A stretch of DNA of 64,000 bases from Aquiflexum balticum DSM 16537. Its GTDB lineage: Bacteria > Bacteroidota > Bacteroidia > Cytophagales > Cyclobacteriaceae. Shown one piece after another: positions 20,958 through 30,325 of this stretch. The DNA is taken from contig NZ_LT838813.1 in assembly GCF_900176595.1 (NCBI RefSeq), positions 1 to 64,000 on the forward strand, read 5' to 3'. A program made the position numbers and the translations under genes. Under the pieces are notes generated by a model that was not told the DNA's origin, did no database searches, and was given only the letters and a program-made list of their open reading frames with translations. The number at the start of each line of letters is the position of its first letter. Positions within the stretch are counted from its first letter, which is position 1.

Positions 20958-20996
20958 AACCCGACTTCGTTTTGGAATGGAGTCGGGTTATTTTTT
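20958..20996. terminator. Bidirectional terminator between dcp and porin 1
   Basis: The 9-bp arms AACCCGACT (20958-20966) and AGTCGGGTT (20981-20989) flank a 14-nt loop, with a T-run on the right and A/T-rich DNA on the left. It sits between two convergent genes and can serve both. Confidence 0.88.
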
Positions 20997-22371
20997 ACTT
21001 CCATTGAATGGTATAATTCACAATAAAATTAACATGAATCATATTGACCTTATTGAAAATCCATTGGGGCTTTATTTCTCCTGATTTGATATTCAGTTTA
21101 CTCATCAAAATCGCATGAAAATCCAAACCTTTCCCCCAGTTTTTTGGAACGTATTTCCCCCCAAAGTTTGCTTGGGCATAAGAGGGAAATGCATACTTAT
21201 TCAATTCGGTATTGCCTGGATCCGGTAAAAAATGTAATCCTGCAAAGCCATAGAATTGGAGGCCTTTTTCAGGAAAATTTCTTTGGTAATAGGTGGTGAA
21301 GGCATCTACCTGATTATAACCTTCATTACGTTCTCGCGGTATAAATGTGAAAAAAGGATCTCGACCCCACTCACGAGGATTCAGAAATCTTCCCCTGCCG
21401 TCTATTCTTGTATAATTCAGCCACCAAATAGACCTGTTGGATTTGATACCTATTCTGCCTCCCAACACAAAATTCAAATCATCAGGATTTTTGAATCTTT
21501 TATCAGGTTCAGGATTACCTCCATCACCTATCCCATCTTGCACTATAAACTGCAGACCTGTAACAAACTTTTTCCCACTATTTGCAATGTCCCAATCCTT
21601 TACGGCTTGCGTAAAAACCGTGTTTGAAATATTGTCTACATAAGTATGGTTTAACTGTAACTGAACATCCGAATCTGTACGATGCTGCCAATCCACCACG
21701 GTGAAGAAATTACTTTCGGTATTACCCTGATAATTTGATGGACCCCCAAATTCACTTTGGCCAACGGGATATATTCCTATTGTCTCCCCAATATCAAACC
21801 AACCCGAAGTTGACCTAGGGCTCATTCTTCCTATAAATTGGGCTGAGAATTTGTTTTTCTTGTCCGGTTGAAAATCCAAGCGTACCCCCTCCACAAATGT
21901 TGGAGAAAGACGACCGTCTTGAGGATTGATAAAAGGTGTGTTGATATCCATTCGGCCCAGGACCGCATTGAATTTTGAAGAACTATACCTTATTTGAAGT
22001 TCTTCCACTTTCCCAAAAAACTTGTCAGATGGATCGTTTACATCAAAAAGCCCTACTTCATACCTGTTGAAATTTTGGGTAACCGGATCTCTTCCCAATA
22101 AATCCGAACTCCATAAGTTGCCAAAAACGGAATACCTTCCCACTATGGAAAAGCCTTTATACGCTTTGGTTTTAAGTTGAATAAATGCACTTTGTCCCAA
22201 GGCAAAGTCTCCTTTGAAATTTTCCCAATAACTTGTGGACATCCAATAAGACCTAAGTCCAATAGTTCCGTGTATTGGGCTTTTGGATTTATTTCTAAGC
22301 GTATCAGATTCTTGGGCAATACTCTGAAAGTGCAAGAAAGTTGAAAAAATCAATAGAATCAAAACTCTCAT
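20995..22371 (-). CDS. Outer-membrane porin-like beta-barrel (porin 1)
   Basis: A 458-residue protein with a signal peptide (LILLIFSTFLHFQSIAQ) and a body of alternating hydrophobic beta-strands typical of a 16- to 18-strand barrel. It ends in a strand with IVNYTIQW. It shares order and motifs with porin 2 at 26892-28280: an (F/Y)-Y-x-Y-P(V/F)G-x-(S/N)-(E/P)FG-x-PS-(N/D)Y stretch, a REWGR-x-(P/N) motif, and a (Y-G/A)-(F/I)PSY near the C-terminus. The start overlaps the end of the TsdA-like cytochrome gene by 4 bp, so the two are one operon. The solute it passes is unknown. An anion such as a sulfur oxyanion is plausible from context only. Confidence 0.82.
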   Translation of the reverse strand: MRVLILLIFSTFLHFQSIAQESDTLRNKSKSPIHGTIGLRSYWMSTSYWENFKGDFALGQSAFIQLKTKAYKGFSIVGRYSVFGNLWSSDLLGRDPVTQNFNRYEVGLFDVNDPSDKFFGKVEELQIRYSSSKFNAVLGRMDINTPFINPQDGRLSPTFVEGVRLDFQPDKKNKFSAQFIGRMSPRSTSGWFDIGETIGIYPVGQSEFGGPSNYQGNTESNFFTVVDWQHRTDSDVQLQLNHTYVDNISNTVFTQAVKDWDIANSGKKFVTGLQFIVQDGIGDGGNPEPDKRFKNPDDLNFVLGGRIGIKSNRSIWWLNYTRIDGRGRFLNPREWGRDPFFTFIPRERNEGYNQVDAFTTYYQRNFPEKGLQFYGFAGLHFLPDPGNTELNKYAFPSYAQANFGGKYVPKNWGKGLDFHAILMSKLNIKSGEIKPQWIFNKVNMIHVNFIVNYTIQWK

Positions 22372-23435
22372 TTCGCGGCTTTTTCTCTTGCTTCTTTTAT
22401 CGGTTTGAATGGACCGAATTTATGTTGTTCCTCACTGAATTCATCCGAAAAAGGTCCGAATGGATGGTCGACGGGTTTTTTGGAAATATCCGGCCAATCT
22501 TTAGAAAGATCTTTTCCGGGACGGTCCATGGAGTTGACATAGGCTGCCACATCCCATGCCTGCTCATCCGTAAGCAATGGCCTTTCGAAAGTTGCTCCTA
22601 ATGGCATGTTGGTTTTGACATACCCTGCAAACCTTGACATCCTGAACAGACCCGCTCCGTGATTATAACTGTGCTCTCCCCATAGTGGTGGGTAAGTATA
22701 TCCTGTTTTGTCTGCTTTCATCATTCCCTGACCATCTTCCATATGACAGCTTTGGCATAATTGGGAATAAACGGTTTTACCTTTTATCGGATCCGCGGCC
22801 CTGTCCAAAAATGGCACTTCGTATATTCCAACTCCTTTCGGGGATTCACCCTTGGGTACGTCTTTTCCAAGCCATTCCATGTAAGCGACCATTGCCAGCA
22901 TTTCTTTACTGTTATTTTCTAAGGCTTTTCCATTCAGACTTCTTTCAAAACAATCATTGATTCTTTTGGGGATATCCTCCATTTGCCCGGAACGGCCTCT
23001 TACTTTTGGATAAGTGGATGCAACAGCTGCATAGTTATTGCCCAAAGGTAAAGAGCCAGCATTCAAATGGCAGTTTTGGCAGTTCATCCCATTGGATATT
23101 TTTTTCACTTTTCCATTTGGCCCCAAATATTCCGATGTGTTGGCTATCAACTCTTTTCCATATTTAATGAGGTCTGCATTGGGTTCGGCTTCTACCGTAT
23201 TCCAGGCTGGTGCCTGCCAAAGACCCTCTTTTGGAATGACACCCCTATAAGTATTTGCGACTGTAGCTACTACCGCATTTCCCGCGGAGGCTAATTGATC
23301 TGATTTTTGAGAAGAAGTGCCATTAAACATCAGCACCACTGTTCCAATCAGGATTACGGTCAATAGTGTAATAGTCACCAATAGACCAACCATTAAAGTC
23401 AGAATTTTTATAAATGGCCGGAAAATATCTTTCAT
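22368..23435 (-). CDS. TsdA-like diheme c-type cytochrome (thiosulfate dehydrogenase family)
   Basis: A 355-residue protein with a membrane anchor or uncleaved signal at about 12-36 and two heme-binding sites, CQNCH (C119-C122-H123) and CQSCH (C227-C230-H231). The arrangement GMNCQNCHLNAG, then DCFERSLNGK at 161-170, then the second heme, matches TsdA, which interconverts thiosulfate and tetrathionate. Cys162 is where TsdA enzymes supply an unusual cysteine heme ligand, so its presence fits catalysis rather than plain electron transfer. The C-terminal GPF-rich tail is a family extension. It is the first gene of a two-gene operon with porin 1. Other small cytochromes of this fold exist, so the substrate remains inferred. 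Confidence 0.8.
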   Translation of the reverse strand: MKDIFRPFIKILTLMVGLLVTITLLTVILIGTVVLMFNGTSSQKSDQLASAGNAVVATVANTYRGVIPKEGLWQAPAWNTVEAEPNADLIKYGKELIANTSEYLGPNGKVKKISNGMNCQNCHLNAGSLPLGNNYAAVASTYPKVRGRSGQMEDIPKRINDCFERSLNGKALENNSKEMLAMVAYMEWLGKDVPKGESPKGVGIYEVPFLDRAADPIKGKTVYSQLCQSCHMEDGQGMMKADKTGYTYPPLWGEHSYNHGAGLFRMSRFAGYVKTNMPLGATFERPLLTDEQAWDVAAYVNSMDRPGKDLSKDWPDISKKPVDHPFGPFSDEFSEEQHKFGPFKPIKEAREKAAK

Positions 23436-23458: not shown

Positions 23459-23504
23459 CAAAATTGGCTTATTCTTACACTAATTAGCTGTGATAATCAT
23501 CACA
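23459..23504 (-). promoter_or_regulatory. Promoter of the tsdA-like operon with Crp/Fnr-type site
   Basis: The site TGTGATGATTATCACA (minus strand, 23504-23489) matches TGTGA-N6-TCACA perfectly. The element CAATTTTG (23466-23459) is one base from the Bacteroidota -7 TAnnTTTG and is 22 bp downstream of the site. If it is the -7, the site centre lies at about -42, the class II activator position. The inferred leader is about 18 nt. Confidence 0.65.
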
Positions 23505-23559
23505 ATTAAATCTAAAAAATAACTTTGAATTTGGCTTTAGAAATTCATGCAAACAACAG

Positions 23560-24291
23560 TCAATCTGAGATCTGTTTGTTCACTTTTGCCAAAAAAACCT
23601 GTTTATTTTGGTTCTTCCCAATCAATATGGTCGAATCTTCTTCAACCTGATAATAGATTTCTATTTCCTGATTCAACATTACCTCCGCAATGTAATTTAT
23701 GAGTATGTACTCGATATTTGCTTTATGTAATAAGCAAAAATCCTCAACCCACCTGATATAGCTTACATTATTTACATGATTGTTCATGTCGAGATCAAAT
23801 GGTCTTACCTTTATAAGATCACCAAAAACAGGCTTTTCCGGAAGTGGTATTTTATCCGGCATTAGTTGGGATCCATCAATATAGCTGAACAACTCCGGGG
23901 GCAATACATTCCCTGGCCTTTGGGGTCTTTTCGATTTGATTTCCAATAACAACCATGCGGACATTGCTTCTGCCAATACTTCACCAGTCGCACTAACCAC
24001 CAAAAACTCCCTTAATGCAAACAGCTTGTCTATTCCCCTCCCGGCCGTTTTCACTGTAATCTCCTCACCCCATGAAGGCATTTTATGCACTTTGATTTCA
24101 AATCTTGACAATACCCAAATATATCCTTGGTCGAAAAGTGCTTTACCGAAGTCCCTGCTATCCGCATGTTTCCAGGCCACTTCCTGCATCAGATCTGCCA
24201 AAGCAGACATACGGAGTCTTCCCTTGGGATCTATCTGAAAAGACAAAACCTCGAATTTTTTCTCAAATTGAAAGGGTATTTTCTCTGACAT
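23560..24291 (-). CDS. Acyl-ACP thioesterase (FatA/FatB type)
   Basis: This enzyme hydrolyses acyl-ACP and ends fatty-acid chain growth. The 243 residues form two tandem hot-dog folds. The first, about 1-125, begins FEKKFEVLSFQIDPKGRLRMSALADLMQEVAW. The second, about 145-243, carries VRPFDLDMNNHVNNVSYIRWVEDF with the Asn/His/Glu residues used by the family. It is followed after 6 bp in the upstream direction by the MFS transporter gene, so the two may be cotranscribed. A link to the sulfur genes is not evident. Confidence 0.9.
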   Translation of the reverse strand: MSEKIPFQFEKKFEVLSFQIDPKGRLRMSALADLMQEVAWKHADSRDFGKALFDQGYIWVLSRFEIKVHKMPSWGEEITVKTAGRGIDKLFALREFLVVSATGEVLAEAMSAWLLLEIKSKRPQRPGNVLPPELFSYIDGSQLMPDKIPLPEKPVFGDLIKVRPFDLDMNNHVNNVSYIRWVEDFCLLHKANIEYILINYIAEVMLNQEIEIYYQVEEDSTILIGKNQNKQVFLAKVNKQISD

Positions 24292-24297
24292 GACTTA

Positions 24298-25458
24298 TCA
24301 TTTGGCTGCTACTTTTCCAGGATAGAAGACATCGGTTTTGATAGTGGACAAAACAGCAATACCCAACCCAGCTATAGCCACCAAGGTAAAGGAAGCTTTC
24401 AAACTTAACAAATCTGCTATAAAACCAATTAAAGGCGGACCTATCAAAAACCCGAAAAACGAAATGGTCGATATGATGGCCAAAGAAACACCAGGAGGAT
24501 AAAGTTTTGACCTGCCCGCTGTACTGTATGCTATGGGAATAATTGAAGCAACCCCAAATCCTACAAGCAAAAATCCGATTGTAGCCACAATTGGAACCGG
24601 AAACAAAACTGATAAAATCAGTCCTGAAAAAATAACCAGCCCACTGATTCTCAAAATGAGCACTTTCCCATATTTATTGGTAACCCTATCCGCAATAAAC
24701 CTTCCTGAAGCCATTGCACCCATAAAAGACACATATCCCAAAGCAACCAAACCTGCTTCTATTTCCACCACTTTCTTAAAATAGACCCCGCTCCAATCAA
24801 ACATACAGCCCTCGCAAAGCATTCCCAAAAATGATATTGATCCTATTCTCAGCAACATGTCGTCAGGTTTTCTTAACACCAGACCACCGCCTCCGCCAGA
24901 ACTCTGTTCATCCACTAGAAGACTTTGAACCAAGAATGTCACTATTAAAACCAACCCGGCCACAAACAAATAATGAAACTTGGGAAGTACATGTAAAAAA
25001 ATCATGATTGCTCCGATTCCTGCCCCTGTAAAACCCGCCAGACTCCACGTTCCATGGAAAGATCCCAAGATATTTCTTCCGTAATTATCCTCTAAGGCCA
25101 AAGCCTGGGTATTCAACGAGATATTCATCAAATTTCCTGTCATACCAAAAAAAAACACCACCGGAACCAACATCCACAAAGATTCGCTGAATCCAATCAG
25201 AGGTAGAAAAACAATGTATCCAGCCGAGGATAGCAATACCACAATCCTACTTCCAAACCGATGAACTGCCCAACCAGCCAGGGGAAGGGCCAATACTGAA
25301 CCAACCGGCAATCCCAAAAGCAAAGAACCCAATTGGGATTCAGAAAGATCAAACTTCACCTGGATATCAGGAATACGGGAAGCCCAAGAAGCAAAACATA
25401 GCCCTGCCAAAAAAAATAAGCTCCCTAAAGCTATTCTTCTTTTTTGAAGTAAAGTCAT
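24298..25458 (-). CDS. MFS transporter (YbjJ/sugar-efflux-like)
   Basis: A 386-residue major facilitator with 12 predicted helices. The N-terminal helix FFLAGLCFASWASRIPDIQVKF and the loop QLGSLLLGLPVGSVLALPLAGWAVHRFGSR carry the classic MFS loop 2-3 signature. The C-terminal half repeats the six-helix arrangement with GMLCEGCMFDWSGVYFKKV at about helix 7. This pattern resembles the YbjJ branch of Gram-negative MFS proteins, for which substrates are poorly known. It lies directly upstream of the thioesterase gene. Confidence 0.88.
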   Translation of the reverse strand: MTLLQKRRIALGSLFFLAGLCFASWASRIPDIQVKFDLSESQLGSLLLGLPVGSVLALPLAGWAVHRFGSRIVVLLSSAGYIVFLPLIGFSESLWMLVPVVFFFGMTGNLMNISLNTQALALEDNYGRNILGSFHGTWSLAGFTGAGIGAIMIFLHVLPKFHYLFVAGLVLIVTFLVQSLLVDEQSSGGGGGLVLRKPDDMLLRIGSISFLGMLCEGCMFDWSGVYFKKVVEIEAGLVALGYVSFMGAMASGRFIADRVTNKYGKVLILRISGLVIFSGLILSVLFPVPIVATIGFLLVGFGVASIIPIAYSTAGRSKLYPPGVSLAIISTISFFGFLIGPPLIGFIADLLSLKASFTLVAIAGLGIAVLSTIKTDVFYPGKVAAK

Positions 25459-25583
25459 TATTGATTTGAAAGGTTAGGTTTGAACTTGCAAAGCTAACAG
25501 CAAAAAACGGAAATAATAAACCTAAAAAAATTGAAATTGACGAACATAATTCATTTACTTCTGTTAATAATAAAAATCAAAAG

Positions 25584-25664
25584 ATGGAATTTGTAATCGC
25601 CGGTTCTGTAATCTTGATCGCCATATTAATGATCAGAACTATTATCAAAAAGGTTTTTGACTGA
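25584..25664 (+). CDS. Possible 26-residue single-helix membrane microprotein
   Basis: An ATG opens a 26-codon frame ending TGA at 25662-25664. The translation has a near-continuous hydrophobic stretch, FVIAGSVILIAILMIRTII, followed by KKVFD, the layout of small membrane proteins with a positive-inside end. An A-rich segment with AAAAGATGG precedes the start. The gap between the divergent MFS gene and the yeeE-type terminator holds nothing else. Short frames occur by chance, so this is a candidate only. Confidence 0.4.
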   Translation: MEFVIAGSVILIAILMIRTIIKKVFD

Positions 25665-25671
25665 ACCGATT

Positions 25672-25706
25672 TTAAAAAAAAAGTCACCGCCTTTTGGCAG
25701 TGACTT
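25672..25706 (-). terminator. Terminator of the yedE-yeeE operon
   Basis: The stem AAGTCAC...GTGACTT (25681-25687 / 25700-25706) is extended inside by GCC/GGC with one mismatch. On the minus strand a T-run corresponds to the nine A at 25672-25680. It lies about 38 bp beyond the yeeE-type stop codon. Confidence 0.8.
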
Positions 25707-25743
25707 CTAATTGATTTTTTTATGTTTCAATCCATGCTCCTCA

Positions 25744-26235
25744 TTAATTGGGAAGTTTATCTGAAAACCTACCATATGTCCATGTTCCCGCAATTGCACT
25801 AATTAAAGTGACTGCAATCACTGTAAATCCACTGCCTATTTGGGCAAACAAAGGTCCCGGACATGCGCCTGTTAAAGCCCAACCCAATCCGAATATAAAT
25901 CCACCAATGATTTGGCCCTTTCTGAATTCTTTTTTCGGTACGACAATTTCCTCTCCATGAATAGTCTTAATGTTAAATCTTTTGATCAATTGAATGGAGA
26001 TCATACCTACCAATATGGCGGATCCGATAACTCCATACATGAAAAAAGATTGTAATCTGAACATTTCCTGAATTCTGAACCAGGAAATGATTTCAGCCTT
26101 GACGAAAATCAGACCGAAAAACAATCCAACTATCAAATATTTTATCAATCCAAATCCGGTCTCATGATCAACCTTATGATTAAGCGTTCCGCAATCCTTT
26201 GGATCCTGTTTTTTTTCAGTTATTGTAGTTTTCAT
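25744..26235 (-). CDS. YeeE/YedE family membrane protein, second half (DUF6691 type)
   Basis: A 163-residue membrane protein with four predicted helices. It carries the family motif GLGWALTGACPGPLFAQIGSG near residue 115, whose Cys is part of the relay of YeeE-type thiosulfate channels. With the gene just upstream it forms a split YeeE/YedE transporter: together the two cover the full two-repeat protein. They are 12 bp apart on one strand. The substrate is probably thiosulfate or a similar sulfur compound, as shown for E. coli YeeE; this is by family analogy. Confidence 0.9.
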   Translation of the reverse strand: MKTTITEKKQDPKDCGTLNHKVDHETGFGLIKYLIVGLFFGLIFVKAEIISWFRIQEMFRLQSFFMYGVIGSAILVGMISIQLIKRFNIKTIHGEEIVVPKKEFRKGQIIGGFIFGLGWALTGACPGPLFAQIGSGFTVIAVTLISAIAGTWTYGRFSDKLPN

Positions 26236-26247
26236 ATTCCTTTATTA

Positions 26248-26829
26248 TTAAAATCCTACTAAAGTCATTAATGGACCCAAAAACGCATGAGTCATCAGAA
26301 ATCCCCCAATCATAAAGAAGATTGTGGCGACCAATGATGGCCATTGGAGAGAACTGATTCCCATAATGGCGTGACCTGAAGTACAACCCCCAGCATATCT
26401 CGTCCCAAATCCAACCAGAAAACCTCCGATTACAAAAAAGAGAAGCCCTTTTGATGTAAACAGATTATCCCAAGTAAATATCTCAGCAGGCATCAGACTG
26501 CTGTAATCAGTAATACCCAATACGGCCAAATCCTGTTGCGTTGATTGTGCAATAACAATGGTCTCAGGATTGGCAAAAAAGGTTGTAGCCACAAATCCAC
26601 CTATCAAGATTCCAATTACAAATACAATGTTCCACATTTCTTTTTTCCAGTTGTAGGTAAAGAAAGGTATATTGGCCGGTACACACATGGCACAGACATG
26701 CCGAAGTGAAGAAGAAATCCCGAAAGACTTGTTTCCAATTATCAATAATATTGGTACTGTAAGGCCGATCAACGGCCCTGCGACCCACCAAGGCCAAGGT
26801 TGCTTAATCCACTCGATAAATTGTTCCAT
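26248..26829 (-). CDS. YeeE/YedE family membrane protein, first half
   Basis: A 193-residue membrane protein with about five helices. Conserved features are the [17 protein letters not shown]-terminal helix, [13 protein letters not shown], and [23 protein letters not shown] near residue 140, the second GCTSGH-type motif of the family. It precedes the companion YeeE-type gene by 12 bp. It lies 62 bp after porin 2 in the same direction, so porin 2, yedE and yeeE are probably one transcript. No separate Crp/Fnr-like site is seen in that 62-bp gap. Confidence 0.9.
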
Positions 26830-26891
26830 ATTTCACTTTTTTGTTTTTGATTCATTTTTAAACTGTTGATAATAATAATTTTTTATCTAAC

Positions 26892-28280
26892 CTAAAACCT
26901 GTAATCCATAACCAGGTTTAAGTTCCACATATTAACCCGGTTTATTCTAAGTTGATCAGGCAAGTCGCTATTTTTCGGTTTTTTATTGATTACAAGTAAT
27001 TGAAGATTTAAACCTTGGAGAAATTCTTTAAAGCTGAAATCCAACATCCCTGAGAATTGGTAATAGGAAGGAATCCCATATTTGTTTGTTTTAAAGGTAT
27101 TCATATCAGAATGATGGATAGTTCCTGCACCAAATTGTGCAAAAAGCCCATCCAATGGAGTTATTAAGTCATATTTGAGAACCCATGCCTGCATATCTCC
27201 GCTTCCTTCATATCTTTCTCTTGATAAACTGGCGTACAAATTCTCTCTTCCCCATTCCCGAGGAAAAAGGAATCTGCCTTTGTCACTGATGCCAAGGAAG
27301 TTGAGAGAAACATAATGTCGGCCAGAGAATATGCCTACTTTCGAGCCTCCTCCAAATCCTTTTTCATCAGGCAATATATAAGTATTTGCCGGGTCAGGGT
27401 TTCCACCATCATTTACAGCAAATTGATAAAAGCCCTGTACACCTAAGTGAAGGTTAGCCTCTCCTCCAATATTAAATGAATAATCAGACTGGGCAAAGCT
27501 CATATTGAAAACATTATCTGCGTGGTAATTCCAGGCTTGAGCAGATAATCCACTCTTGTGAAACTGGAATCCAAACATCCCTATGCCTTTTGAACTTATC
27601 TTGTCTTTATAGTCTGAAGGTTCTCCAAATGGATTCCTTCCAAAAGGATAGACACCATAAGAATCCTCAATACTATACCAATCTACCGTTCCCCTTATGG
27701 TGACGGAATTGATCCACATGGCGGTTACTTTGTAATTTAACCCCGAATAAACAGCGGATAATCCTCCAAAGACATTTGGTCTCATTCTATTATCCTGTTC
27801 ATTCAGCAATGGAGTGATAATTTTTTGTCTTCCTAAGGTGAATTTCAACCTGTTTTTTCGGTAAGCAATAAACAATTCCTCCAATCTATCCAGCCTGTTG
27901 GTATTGGTGAGATCGTTCATATCATACAACAAAATCTCATACCTGTTCCCGGCACCTGTTATGGGATCTGCAATCCGAATGTTATTTTCAAACACCTGAA
28001 AGGTGAAGAAACCACTGAATCTTGCCTCAAACCCTTTCCATTCAGGACTGGTATAACCTATTCCTGCACCAGCTGCCAAGGTGGCGTAATCCAGGAGATC
28101 ACCTTTGTTTATGGTGGACATAAAGAAGGACTTGATATGGAAATCTACTTTTCCACTTTTAAGTTCTTCCCCGAGATTTTTCTTTTGCACAGGTAAAGAA
28201 TCACTCTCATTCATATAAATTTCATCAGCAAAAGCAGATTTGCTTAAGCCCAATAAAATGATTATAATCAATAAGCGCAT
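26892..28280 (-). CDS. Outer-membrane porin-like beta-barrel (porin 2)
   Basis: A 462-residue outer-membrane barrel with signal peptide MRLLIIIILLGLSKSAFA. The ATG at 28280 is chosen over an upstream TTG at 28289 because the signal peptide starts there. It is a paralog of porin 1 (20995-22371), sharing segments such as REWGR, SRER-x-EG and IPSYYQF, and the ending MDYRF is a typical barrel terminus with aromatic last residue. It is the first gene before the YedE/YeeE pair and has its own Crp/Fnr-like promoter. With the YeeE-type channel it could bring an anionic sulfur compound across both membranes. Confidence 0.82.
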   Translation of the reverse strand: MRLLIIIILLGLSKSAFADEIYMNESDSLPVQKKNLGEELKSGKVDFHIKSFFMSTINKGDLLDYATLAAGAGIGYTSPEWKGFEARFSGFFTFQVFENNIRIADPITGAGNRYEILLYDMNDLTNTNRLDRLEELFIAYRKNRLKFTLGRQKIITPLLNEQDNRMRPNVFGGLSAVYSGLNYKVTAMWINSVTIRGTVDWYSIEDSYGVYPFGRNPFGEPSDYKDKISSKGIGMFGFQFHKSGLSAQAWNYHADNVFNMSFAQSDYSFNIGGEANLHLGVQGFYQFAVNDGGNPDPANTYILPDEKGFGGGSKVGIFSGRHYVSLNFLGISDKGRFLFPREWGRENLYASLSRERYEGSGDMQAWVLKYDLITPLDGLFAQFGAGTIHHSDMNTFKTNKYGIPSYYQFSGMLDFSFKEFLQGLNLQLLVINKKPKNSDLPDQLRINRVNMWNLNLVMDYRF

Positions 28281-28286
28281 GTCCGT

Positions 28287-28331
28287 CAAAATTGGCCAAA
28301 CTTTACAATTAATAAAGTGATATTTATCACC
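28287..28331 (-). promoter_or_regulatory. Promoter of porin 2 with Crp/Fnr-type site
   Basis: The site GGTGATAAATATCACT (28331-28316) has perfect inner arms GTGATA/TATCAC. CAATTTTG (28294-28287), preceded by GGC, repeats the GCCAATTTTG of the tsdA-like promoter, and the spacing is 21 bp. If this is the -7, transcription would begin almost at the ATG at 28280, giving a leaderless or near-leaderless mRNA. Confidence 0.55.
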
Positions 28332-28349
28332 TTGAGATATCTGAAATTA

Positions 28350-28378
28350 AAAATGGCAAGACTCAAAGCCTTGCCATT
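28350..28378 (-). terminator. Terminator of the MBL-rhodanese gene
   Basis: The 9-bp arms AATGGCAAG (28352-28360) and CTTGCCATT (28370-28378) are followed on the minus strand by TTTAATTT. It ends the MBL-rhodanese transcript before the porin 2 promoter, so porin 2 needs its own promoter. Confidence 0.85.
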
Positions 28379-28417
28379 AATATTTAGGGTTAATTAAGAT
28401 CCTTTTTCCTATTTAAA

Positions 28418-29839
28418 TTATAGCAAAGTGGTAGGACAAACATAGTCACTCACTTCGAAAAGCCCGGAGTCCTTGATGGCATCAAATCCACCTTTCACGT
28501 CAATCAGGTTGTCATAACCTCTGGCTCTCAAGATTGAATTGAAGACCATAGACCTATATCCTCCTGCACAATGCACATAGTAGATTTTATCTTTATTCAC
28601 TTTGGTCATACTGTCATTGATGTAGTCCAATGGTGCATTTTCAGCATCGATGACATGTTCACTCATGTACTCAGAATTTTTTCTGATATCTAGGATATTT
28701 ACCTGACCTTCTTTTTCAACTATATGAGCCAATTCATCTGCCGAGACCGATTTGATGGAATCAGTTTCTCTTCCATCAGCTTTCCATGATTCAAAGCCTC
28801 CTTTCAGATATCCAATGCAATAATCATAACCTACTCTTGCCAATCTGGTAATTACTTCCTCTTCTCTGCCTTCTTCGGCCACAACAAGAATTTCTTGCTT
28901 CAGGTCAGGAACCAAAGCCCCTACCCATACCGCAAAACTTCCGTCAATACCAATATTAATAGAATTTGGAATAAATCCCTTCGCAAAAACCTGAGCATCT
29001 CTGGTATCGATGATTACTGCTCCGGTCTCATTGGCAGCCGCTTCAAAAGCAGCAGGGCTCAAAGGATTGAATCCCCGGGTCAAAACATCATCTATAGAAT
29101 CATATCCTTGGATATTCATCATAACATTTTGAGGGAAATAAGATGGCGGAGGCGTCAGACCAGTCAGTACTTCTTTGACAAATTCCTCTTTAGTCATTTC
29201 CTGAAGGGCATAATTGGTTTTCTTTTGATTTCCCAAGGTATCAGAAGTTTCCTTACTCATATTTTTTCCGCATGCACTACCGGCACCATGAGCAGGATAA
29301 ACAATGATATCATCTGCCATAGGCATGATTTTTTCTCTTAATGAATCGTATAGATGAGCTGCCAATTTATCTTGGGTCAAGTCAGCAATAACTTTCTGTG
29401 CCAAGTCCGGACGTCCTACATCACCAATGAACAAAGTATCTCCGGTGAATAATGCCTCTTCTTTTCCTTCCTCATTGATCAAAAGGAAGCAGGAACTTTC
29501 CATGGTATGACCGGGGGTATGAATTACCCTGATTTTTGCTTTTCCCAAAGGGAATTCCTGACCGTCTTTTGCTACGATAGCATCAAAGCCCATTTTCATA
29601 CCAGTGGGTCCAAAAACTATTGGAGCACCTGTCTTGGCGGACAAGTCCTGATGTCCCGATACAAAGTCTGCATGGAAGTGGGTTTCAAAAACATACTTGA
29701 TTTTAGCTCCTCTTCTTTCAGCTTTTTCGATATAAGGCTGCACCTCTCTAAGAGGATCAATTACAGCAGCTTCTCCCTCAGACTCGATGTAGTAAGCTCC
29801 CTGAGCCAAGCATCCGGTATAAATTTGTTCGATTAGCAT
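28418..29839 (-). CDS. MBL-fold hydrolase fused to two rhodanese domains (persulfide dioxygenase-like)
   Basis: A three-domain protein of 473 residues from the ATG at 29839. Residues 1-220 are a metallo-beta-lactamase fold of the ETHE1/glyoxalase II branch, with H54-F-H56-A-D58, H111, D134 and H184 as metal ligands. Residues about 255-355 form one rhodanese domain whose active-site Cys position reads AEEGRE, so it is probably inactive. Residues about 365-465 form a second rhodanese domain with Cys424 in HCAGGYRS. Persulfide dioxygenases with such fusions oxidise glutathione or bacillithiol persulfide to sulfite. The family and context fit removal of sulfane sulfur. An upstream TTG start at 29899 would precede the predicted transcription start. 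Confidence 0.9.
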   Translation of the reverse strand: MLIEQIYTGCLAQGAYYIESEGEAAVIDPLREVQPYIEKAERRGAKIKYVFETHFHADFVSGHQDLSAKTGAPIVFGPTGMKMGFDAIVAKDGQEFPLGKAKIRVIHTPGHTMESSCFLLINEEGKEEALFTGDTLFIGDVGRPDLAQKVIADLTQDKLAAHLYDSLREKIMPMADDIIVYPAHGAGSACGKNMSKETSDTLGNQKKTNYALQEMTKEEFVKEVLTGLTPPPSYFPQNVMMNIQGYDSIDDVLTRGFNPLSPAAFEAAANETGAVIIDTRDAQVFAKGFIPNSINIGIDGSFAVWVGALVPDLKQEILVVAEEGREEEVITRLARVGYDYCIGYLKGGFESWKADGRETDSIKSVSADELAHIVEKEGQVNILDIRKNSEYMSEHVIDAENAPLDYINDSMTKVNKDKIYYVHCAGGYRSMVFNSILRARGYDNLIDVKGGFDAIKDSGLFEVSDYVCPTTLL

Positions 29840-29880
29840 ATTATATTCTTTTTTTTCGGTTATTTGAATAATTATAATGG

Positions 29881-29925
29881 TAAAAATATCAGGACTCAAT
29901 TTTTTATAAAATGACTTTTGTCACA
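29881..29925 (-). promoter_or_regulatory. Promoter of the MBL-rhodanese gene with Crp/Fnr-like site
   Basis: The site TGTGACAAAAGTCATT (29925-29910) matches TGTGA in full and three of five bases of the second half. TATTTTTA (29888-29881), one base off TAnnTTTG, is 21 bp downstream. Transcription near 29875 would give a leader of about 35 nt to the ATG at 29839. Confidence 0.55.
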
Positions 29926-29934
29926 TTTTTAAAA

Positions 29935-30261
29935 TTAAGCTTTTACTTGTGTTTTTTCTTCAATTACCTTCACTAATTGATGGGCAGGAACTACTCCTGA
30001 TTGCCTCCAAATGGTCAGACCGTTTTGGAAAAGAATCAAAGTAGGAACTCCTCTAACCTGGTACTTGCTTGCTGCAAGGGGGTTTTTGTCTACATCTACC
30101 TTTACTATTTTGATCTTATCTCCCATCTGTCTGGAAGTTTCCTGAAGTATTGGCTGCATCATTTGACAGGGCCCGCACCAAGTGGCGAAGAAATCCACTA
30201 AAACCGGCTGGTCTCCTGATATTAATTCATTGAATGTTTTAGGTTGTGCACTCATGGTCAT
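29935..30261 (-). CDS. trxA: Thioredoxin
   Basis: A 108-residue thioredoxin with the WCGPC active site (W28-C29-G30-P31-C32) and the cis-Pro segment RGVPTLILF. It reduces disulfides and can reduce protein or low-molecular-weight persulfides, which would suit the adjacent MBL-rhodanese gene. A second in-frame ATG at 30255 is also possible. It precedes the MBL-rhodanese gene by about 95 bp on the same strand, with a separate promoter for each. Confidence 0.95.
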
Positions 30262-30280
30262 CTCTTATTTTTTAGTGATA

Positions 30281-30325
30281 CAAATTTAAGGGCCTATATA
30301 CAATTGGACAGTAATTTTTATCACA
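30281..30325 (-). promoter_or_regulatory. Promoter of trxA with Crp/Fnr-like half-site
   Basis: TGTGATAAAAATTACT (30325-30310) has the full TGTGA arm and a weak second arm. TAAATTTG (30288-30281) matches TAnnTTTG exactly and lies 21 bp from the site, the same spacing as in three nearby promoters. The predicted leader is about 13 nt. Confidence 0.55.

Follow-up and report, generated by a model that had tools for sequence, protein, structure and literature searches.

Candidate operators of a Crp-type sulfur-oxidation regulon in Aquiflexum balticum and related Bacteroidota

A block of sulfur genes near the start of the Aquiflexum balticum DSM 16537 genome raises the question of whether its promoters are controlled together and, if so, by which protein. 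The window analysed comprised positions 1–64,000 of this single-contig genome (5,987,095 bp) and had a G+C content of 39%. A sequence-only reading had noted on its minus strand four Crp/Fnr-like sites, each standing 21 or 22 bp ahead of an element resembling the Bacteroidota -7 element TAnnTTTG, upstream of the genes for a thioredoxin (trxA), a protein with metallo-beta-lactamase (MBL) fold and rhodanese domains, an outer-membrane porin (porin 2), and a tsdA-like cytochrome, and had tentatively placed these genes in one regulon under a Crp/Fnr-family activator. The letters and distances were found exactly as described, with spacers of 22, 21, 21, and 21 bp for the tsdA-like, porin 2, MBL-rhodanese, and trxA promoters, respectively. 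On the evidence given below, the four sites can with good confidence be regarded as putative operators of one sulfur-oxidation regulon with a Crp-type owner.

Four boxes and their conservation in related genomes

All features of the block lie on the minus strand. The box of trxA (TGTGATAAAAATTACT, nt 30310–30325) was followed after 21 bp by the -7 element TAAATTTG (nt 30281–30288), and that of the MBL-rhodanese gene (TGTGACAAAAGTCATT, nt 29910–29925) after 21 bp by TATTTTTA (nt 29881–29888); the latter box is a hybrid, consisting of one GTGAC half and one ATGAC half. The same -7 element, CAATTTTG, was present at nt 28287–28294, 21 bp after the porin 2 box (GGTGATAAATATCACT, nt 28316–28331), and at nt 23459–23466, 22 bp after the box of the tsdA-like gene (TGTGATGATTATCACA, nt 23489–23504). 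In a promoter model, R1 (see below), the MBL-rhodanese, trxA, and porin 2 boxes ranked 1 (25.3 bits), 3 (18.1 bits), and 5 (17.2 bits) in this genome. All four boxes were kept in relatives. The likely ATG of porin 2 (nt 28280) lies just 6 bp past its -7 element; a nearly leaderless mRNA is therefore predicted.

Conservation was examined in the best 80 of 570 loci containing an MBL-rhodanese relative; the closest MBL proteins among the loci fetched were those of Cecembia (87% identity), Mongoliitalea (86%), and Algoriphagus (up to 85%). Scanning of the 160 bp before the MBL start in 79 regions of other genomes revealed a site matching at least 10 of 12 positions in 51. Among these 51 promoters, the spacer between the box and TAnnTTTG (at least 5 of 6 positions) was 21 bp long in 39 and 22 bp long in 8, making 47 in all, while any other offset between 0 and 44 was occupied in at most 2 cases. 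Boxes with GTGAC or GTGAT predominated among the scanned MBL promoters, and the spacer of the composites had no strong letter preference outside the -33 place.

For the other genes, a composite score was used, with 12 points for the box and 6 for TAnnTTTG (total 18), a spacer of 21 or 22 bp, and a pass at 15 or more. Within the MBL loci, composites passed upstream of trxA in 31 of 40 cases, tsdA in 23 of 40, and porin 2 in 24 of 43, some of the porin matches in this count being distant paralogs; first-order Markov shuffles of these upstream regions passed at 0 to 0.125%. When counted per gene across the 80 loci, the composite preceded 56 of 85 MBL genes, 30 of 37 trxA, 29 of 32 TauE, 23 of 40 tsdA, 21 of 29 porin 2, 11 of 58 first YeeE, and 8 of 55 rhodanese genes, and 8 of 648 genes unrelated to the named set. 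The sequence-only reading had named an equal frequency of such spaced sites elsewhere as its refutation, and this was not observed in these loci. The pattern as a whole goes far beyond chance, as judged by the spacing in the 51 MBL promoters, the genome ranks of 1, 3, and 5, and the tsdA count (23 of 40 versus 0.125% in shuffles).

Four of the eight unrelated composite-bearing genes (L042:14680-15999, L080:7932-9542, and one each in L044 and L054) resembled one secreted family with the signature GGLQSFAW...GGRLDGLHRRQPFA. Of two members scanned, one had a Por secretion tail and the other had no Pfam match. The family probably belongs to the regulon, although it has no name.

The geometry of the composite bears on the mode of action. 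The Bacteroides housekeeping promoter is described as having elements centred at -7 and -33, and the sigma-ABfr promoter as TAnnTTTG at -7 with TTTG at -33 (PMC7366714). In the strong-site MBL promoters, the -7 element was present, a conserved TTTG at -33 was not seen, and the -33 place coincided with the box's downstream edge. Class II activators bind boxes centred near -41.5 and do without a -35 or -33 element. With TAnnTTTG centred at -7, the box centre lies at about -40 (21-bp spacer) or -41 (22-bp spacer); with a transcription start 5–6 bp past TAnnTTTG, it lies at about -42. In relatives, the distance at all four promoters likewise puts the box centre near -40 to -42. Given the fixed spacing of 21–22 bp, this box position, and the missing -33 element, class II activation is the most likely mode.

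Genome-wide occurrence and the spacer decoy

Model R1 was built from sequence only, using 47 MBL promoters of other genomes with the present genome excluded. The scan of all 5,987,095 bp gave 4994 first-look candidates, of which 150 were scored; these yielded 30 matches at E ≤ 10, 9 of them at E < 0.1, the E-values being rough. The nine preceded or lay at the MBL-rhodanese gene, a second MBL-rhodanese gene, trxA, an unassigned site at nt 5,673,220, porin 2, and the genes for Hsp20, a rhodanese, an SQR-like protein, and a SoxB-like protein. Seven of them precede sulfur-type genes, four in addition to those of MBL-rhodanese, trxA, and porin 2. The single-domain rhodanese and the second MBL-rhodanese protein were named by Pfam domains only and porin 2 by its neighbourhood, while the SQR-like and SoxB-like proteins scored below their NCBIfam cut-offs (235 versus 525 and 232 versus 550, respectively). 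Next in order were matches before DoxX (E = 0.10), narK (0.11), a PqqD-like gene (0.18), and a SulP gene adjoining the C2 gene described below (0.23). Single sites at 12–14 bits occurred genome-wide.

Two of the nine matches lie apart from the sulfur genes. The Hsp20 gene carried a composite element of 17.1 bits at nt 5385024–5385069. The strong box TGTGACAAATGTCACT at nt 5673220–5673244 was matched without the -7 part of R1 and had no clear gene on its strand; an open reading frame of 108 aa on the minus strand begins about 11 bp away.

In a decoy model, the box and the -7 element were left unchanged and the spacer was lengthened by 5 bp. It returned 2 matches at E < 0.2 versus 12 with R1, and both covered the box part only. 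In six other genomes, R1 gave 38 matches at E ≤ 0.2, and 18 of the 30 examined lay before homologs of the named genes, namely MBL (6), trxA (3), TauE (2), porin 2 (2), and SoxB-like, rhodanese, SQR, SulP, and peroxiredoxin genes (1 each); the 6 MBL promoters had been in R1 training, so that the independent count is 12 of 24. The tsdA site was absent from the 30 matches in the present genome. The idea of one sulfur regulon gained support, and the regulon appears larger than what the window contains, as the box recurs before further sulfur genes in this genome and in relatives.

The candidate regulator and its rivals

Six matches to PF13545 were found in the genome, five of which had the Crp/Fnr layout; the sixth (L005, 24.1 bits, below the cut-off) was read by eye as ArsR-type and dropped from the comparison. 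One of the five, C2, is a protein of 218 aa encoded at nt 3,396,701–3,397,357, outside the window and 3.4 Mb away. It belongs to the Crp/Fnr superfamily, combining a cNMP-binding-type domain at the N terminus with a Crp HTH at the C terminus, by PF00027 (38.6 bits), PF13545 (50.3 bits), and PF00325 (29.3 bits), all above cut-off. When the five proteins were used as queries against the 80 MBL loci, C2 was the best query at all 34 places found (35–67% identity). Of the genomes behind 50 of these loci, 46 were searched, and C2 relatives were present in all 46, in one as fragments only. In a sample of 118 genomes of the phylum, 27 had MBL (E ≤ 1e-100) and 91 did not; C2 (E ≤ 1e-20) was present in 23 of the former and 21 of the latter (Fisher p = 8e-9, phylogeny ignored).

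The C2 genes of relatives also stand next to the box. Composites, with spacers of 20–23 bp allowed, were found in 18 of 26 C2 promoters, versus 0.15% of shuffles; 13 lie 13–18 bp before the ATG and 5 lie 63–86 bp before it, the latter of which may serve the neighbouring gene instead. Of 55 R1 matches around C2 genes, 38 were examined, and these precede C2 (12), TauE/SafE-like genes (15; the TauE name was Pfam-checked on one member), SQR (6), MBL (2), a UspA-like gene (2), and no gene (1). Some of the SQR genes carrying a composite are divergent to C2, with the TauE-like ones nearby.

Alignment of C2 relatives gave 58 rows including three duplicates, and residues were counted on the 55 distinct proteins. 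The recognition helix, SREVISR, had R183 in 55 of 55, E184 in 53 of 55, and R188 in 55 of 55. By the CRP/FNR specificity rule given in PMC1274295 (R180-G3/E181-A6), such residues go with TGTGA boxes. The complete set (equivalents of R180, E181, and R185) was present only in C2, with C1, C3, C4, and C6 lacking one or more. Because of the linkage, the co-occurrence, the R-E...R helix, and the box in the C2 promoters of relatives, C2, an apparently unstudied Crp-type protein, is the likely reader of the box. Control by a Crp/Fnr-family protein, as first suggested, is accordingly supported and narrowed to C2 rather than its FNR-like paralog, while the terms activator and class II stand on promoter geometry.

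As for the signal, Cys78 was conserved in 55 of 55 and Cys84 in 51 of 55 distinct C2 proteins, and 53 of 55 had Cys78 together with Cys84 or Cys85; cysteines occurred in at least 10 of the 58 rows only at these three columns, a distribution unlike the N-terminal cysteine cluster of the [4Fe-4S] protein FNR, and the boxes are of the GTGA type and not the TTGAT-N4-ATCAA of FNR. Cys78 and Cys84 align with the cAMP-binding segment of CRP. CRP contacts cAMP through E72 and R82. In C2, E72 aligned with a gap, the position aligned with R82 (R89) was variable (K, E, R, L, Q, or T), and the score against the NCBIfam CRP model was 54.9 (cut-off 266); cAMP is therefore not favoured as its signal. The conserved cysteines in the old cAMP pocket, together with the regulon content, suggest that the Cys78-Cys84 pair could be a dithiol switch sensing sulfide-derived persulfide, and persulfide is tentatively proposed as the C2 signal, a choice held with less confidence than the regulon itself. 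Dithiol persulfide sensors, a functional class and not a protein family, have two conserved cysteines able to form polysulfide links.

In the favoured mechanism, sulfide-derived persulfide would be sensed through Cys78 and Cys84, and C2 would bind TGTGAY-N4-RTCACA-like boxes via its CRP-like helix and, as a class II activator, most likely touch RNA polymerase from a position near -40 to -42. In this block C2 would thereby turn on the MBL-rhodanese protein (persulfide oxidation), thioredoxin, the porin/YeeE uptake unit, and the TsdA-porin unit; its further targets in the genome would be the genes for the SQR-like and SoxB-like proteins, the rhodanese, and the second MBL-rhodanese protein.

Several observations weigh against this reading. 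Of the 79 MBL upstream regions, 28 had no strong site (fewer than 10 of 12 positions) within 160 bp, and the related genomes are non-independent samples whose shared ancestry is ignored by the shuffles. In the 80 loci, the composite preceded only 4 of 25 porin 1, 3 of 14 SoxB-like, and 1 of 11 SQR genes, and none of the 59 second YeeE, 5 second MBL-rhodanese, and 33 C2 genes; several of these low-scoring classes sit within gene clusters. The tsdA site reached just 8.2 bits in R1, some R1 matches precede non-sulfur genes (Hsp20, NarK, and PqqD-like), and several box positions returned in the decoy list at E = 1.6–2.6. The C2 promoter of this genome has no good box (best 11 of 18), being among the 8 of 26 lacking it. 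Across the phylum sample, the composite was present within 200 bp at 12 of 28 MBL promoters from 22 C2-bearing genomes, versus 1 of 4 from genomes without C2 (E ≤ 1e-20); the difference has the same direction, but with so few cases it is not significant and lends no support by itself. Lastly, the MBL box in most of the Cyclobacteriaceae loci L007–L033 is the hybrid GTGAC-N4-GTCAT, which resembles the sites of the paralog C1.

This last point leads to the strongest rival, in which C1 would control the set through an oxygen response, alone or with C2, with the MBL promoter as the prime case. C1 is a protein of 237 aa with N-terminal cysteines, encoded at about nt 5,873,200–5,873,900, and its nearest NCBIfam model is Fnr (88 bits, below the cut-off of 228). 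Its own promoters, that of this genome (L001) and those of L206–L213, had boxes that were hybrid or of the form ATGAY-N4-RTCAT at about this distance from TAnnTTTG, 4 of 9 scoring at least 15 of 18; ATGAC-type boxes also precede narK here and nrfH in a relative (G001), and the Cyclobacteriaceae MBL box has one ATGAC half. Against this, C1 was the best query at no place in the 80 MBL loci, it has T at the R180 equivalent, and none of the boxes of trxA, porin 2, and tsdA belongs to the ATGA type. C1 is also unlikely as the sole regulator because a match of at least 48% identity was found in only 27 of the 46 genomes, and 3 of them had no match at E ≤ 0.001, whereas C2 was present in 46. On balance, control of the set by C1 is improbable. 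Perhaps C1 governs a second regulon of the same promoter design, with narK and nrfH-type genes; the two paralogs may then read two spellings of one design, and the hybrid MBL box could possibly be read by both, under dual control. A third paralog, C3, adjoins norB/norC-like and nirK-like genes (read by eye); it has A-D instead of R-E, was the best query in no MBL locus, and is not favoured as the regulator.

Slightly less probable still is that the boxes are repressor operators, at which C2 would block RNA polymerase near -40 and be released by sulfide or persulfide, as are SqrR and CstR. The box in C2's own promoter suits an activator or a repressor alike. A repressor, however, needs no fixed distance to a promoter element, and the box stood at a near-fixed 21–22 bp from the -7 element in 47 of 51 promoters and over the -33 place, an arrangement that fits class II activation. 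In favour of repression, a review (PMC9774590) presents CstR and SqrR/BigR, both regulators responding to persulfide, as repressors.

Chance or generic AT-rich promoter sequence, to which the shortness of the elements, the 39% G+C of the window, and the genome-wide occurrence of single sites at 12–14 bits might point, is made very unlikely by the spacing statistics, by the genome scan with its top matches rich in sulfur genes, by the loss of matches in the +5-bp decoy, and by recurrence at four promoters and others in tens of genomes.

With C2 retained as the preferred regulator, the genes concerned can be described. The gene trxA (nt 29935–30261) encodes a thioredoxin of 108 aa (PF00085). The MBL-rhodanese gene (nt 28418–29839) encodes 473 aa from the ATG at nt 29839, with PF00753 and PF00581 in two rhodanese stretches; no NCBIfam model matched it above its cut-off, and its product is a probable persulfide dioxygenase/sulfurtransferase. 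Porin 2 (nt 26892–28280), an OprD-like outer-membrane protein (PF03573, 24.3 bits, slightly below the cut-off of 25), is the probable first gene of an operon including two genes for YeeE/YedE-like sulfur transport proteins, A (nt 26248–26829; PF04143) and B (nt 25744–26235; PF04143 and PF20398). The tsdA-like gene (nt 22368–23435) encodes a diheme cytochrome c of 355 aa (PF21342 SoxA-TsdA_cyt-c and PF00034); its end overlaps porin 1 (nt 20995–22371; PF03573, 24.9 bits, slightly below the cut-off of 25), and from these overlapping coordinates the two are probably co-transcribed.

Comparison with known systems

The present reading gives Bacteroidota sulfur oxidation a named candidate regulator, operator, promoter geometry, and gene list, together with a compact rule (box, 21–22 bp, TAnnTTTG) for reading promoters that depend on an activator in a phylum lacking the classical -35/-10 type. 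Sensing of persulfide via cysteines in the old cAMP pocket, if true, would put the Crp fold to a new use. On a wider and equally tentative view, C2 might found a separate, phylum-wide class of sulfide/persulfide-responsive activators, in which a Cys78-Cys84 switch would replace the cAMP pocket, class II action on sigma-ABfr promoters would drive the oxidation of sulfide and thiosulfate by heterotrophic members of the Bacteroidota, and the FNR-like paralog would read the ATGA-type version near the same spacing, with hybrid boxes such as that of MBL joining oxygen and sulfur signals at a single site.

Among the matches listed from open-licence PMC literature, no Crp-type sulfur regulon in Bacteroidota was found, which is weak evidence for novelty. 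SqrR/BigR, CstR, and FisR are not known to use a TAnnTTTG-coupled box. As is proposed for C2, these persulfide regulators, named in the review PMC9774590, exert conserved-cysteine control of sulfide or persulfide oxidation genes; they belong to other protein families (ArsR, CsoR, and sigma-54 activators, respectively) and not to the Crp type. The CrpPg protein of Porphyromonas gingivalis is a cAMP-independent Crp homolog in Bacteroidota whose mutant had lower trxA (PMC12040651). It differs in that its structure, 2GAU, was not among the 35 PDB sequences matching C2 at E ≤ 0.001 and in that no sulfur regulon is described in the part of PMC12040651 at hand.

HcpR offers a closer likeness in its site, the Desulfovibrio consensus wTGTGAnnnnnnTCACAw (PMC1274295) being nearly identical to the present box. 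HcpR regulons centre on hcp, whereas sulfur genes are found here, in a comparison of site, helix, and regulon content. HcpR is a Crp/Fnr-family regulator of nitrosative stress occurring in Desulfovibrio, Bacteroides, and Porphyromonas. In HcpR2, the Bacteroides type, position 181 is Pro and the site is GTAACnnnnGTTAC (PMC1274295), and by that rule an HcpR2 identity was set aside for C2, with Glu184 in 53 of 55 proteins and GTGAC/GTGAT boxes predominating. Certain other families of the phylum nonetheless have GTAAC-type boxes; in three loci (L221, L222, and L224), boxes of the type TGTAA[CT]-N4-GTTAC, near the HcpR2 consensus, stand 21 bp before MBL. By the same rule (PMC1274295), the helix and box of the Desulfovibrio-type HcpR1, which is marked by its sequence relation to HcpR and its control of hcp, would not set it apart from C2.

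The E. coli CRP shares with C2 the Crp-type domains, the R-E...R recognition helix, a TGTGA-N6-TCACA-type box, and, as predicted from the spacing, a box centre near -41. C2 is 24% identical to a CRP sequence and differs from it in having no counterpart of E72 and no conserved Arg at R82, in possessing two conserved cysteines, and in probably working with a Bacteroidota -7 promoter instead of a sigma-70 promoter.

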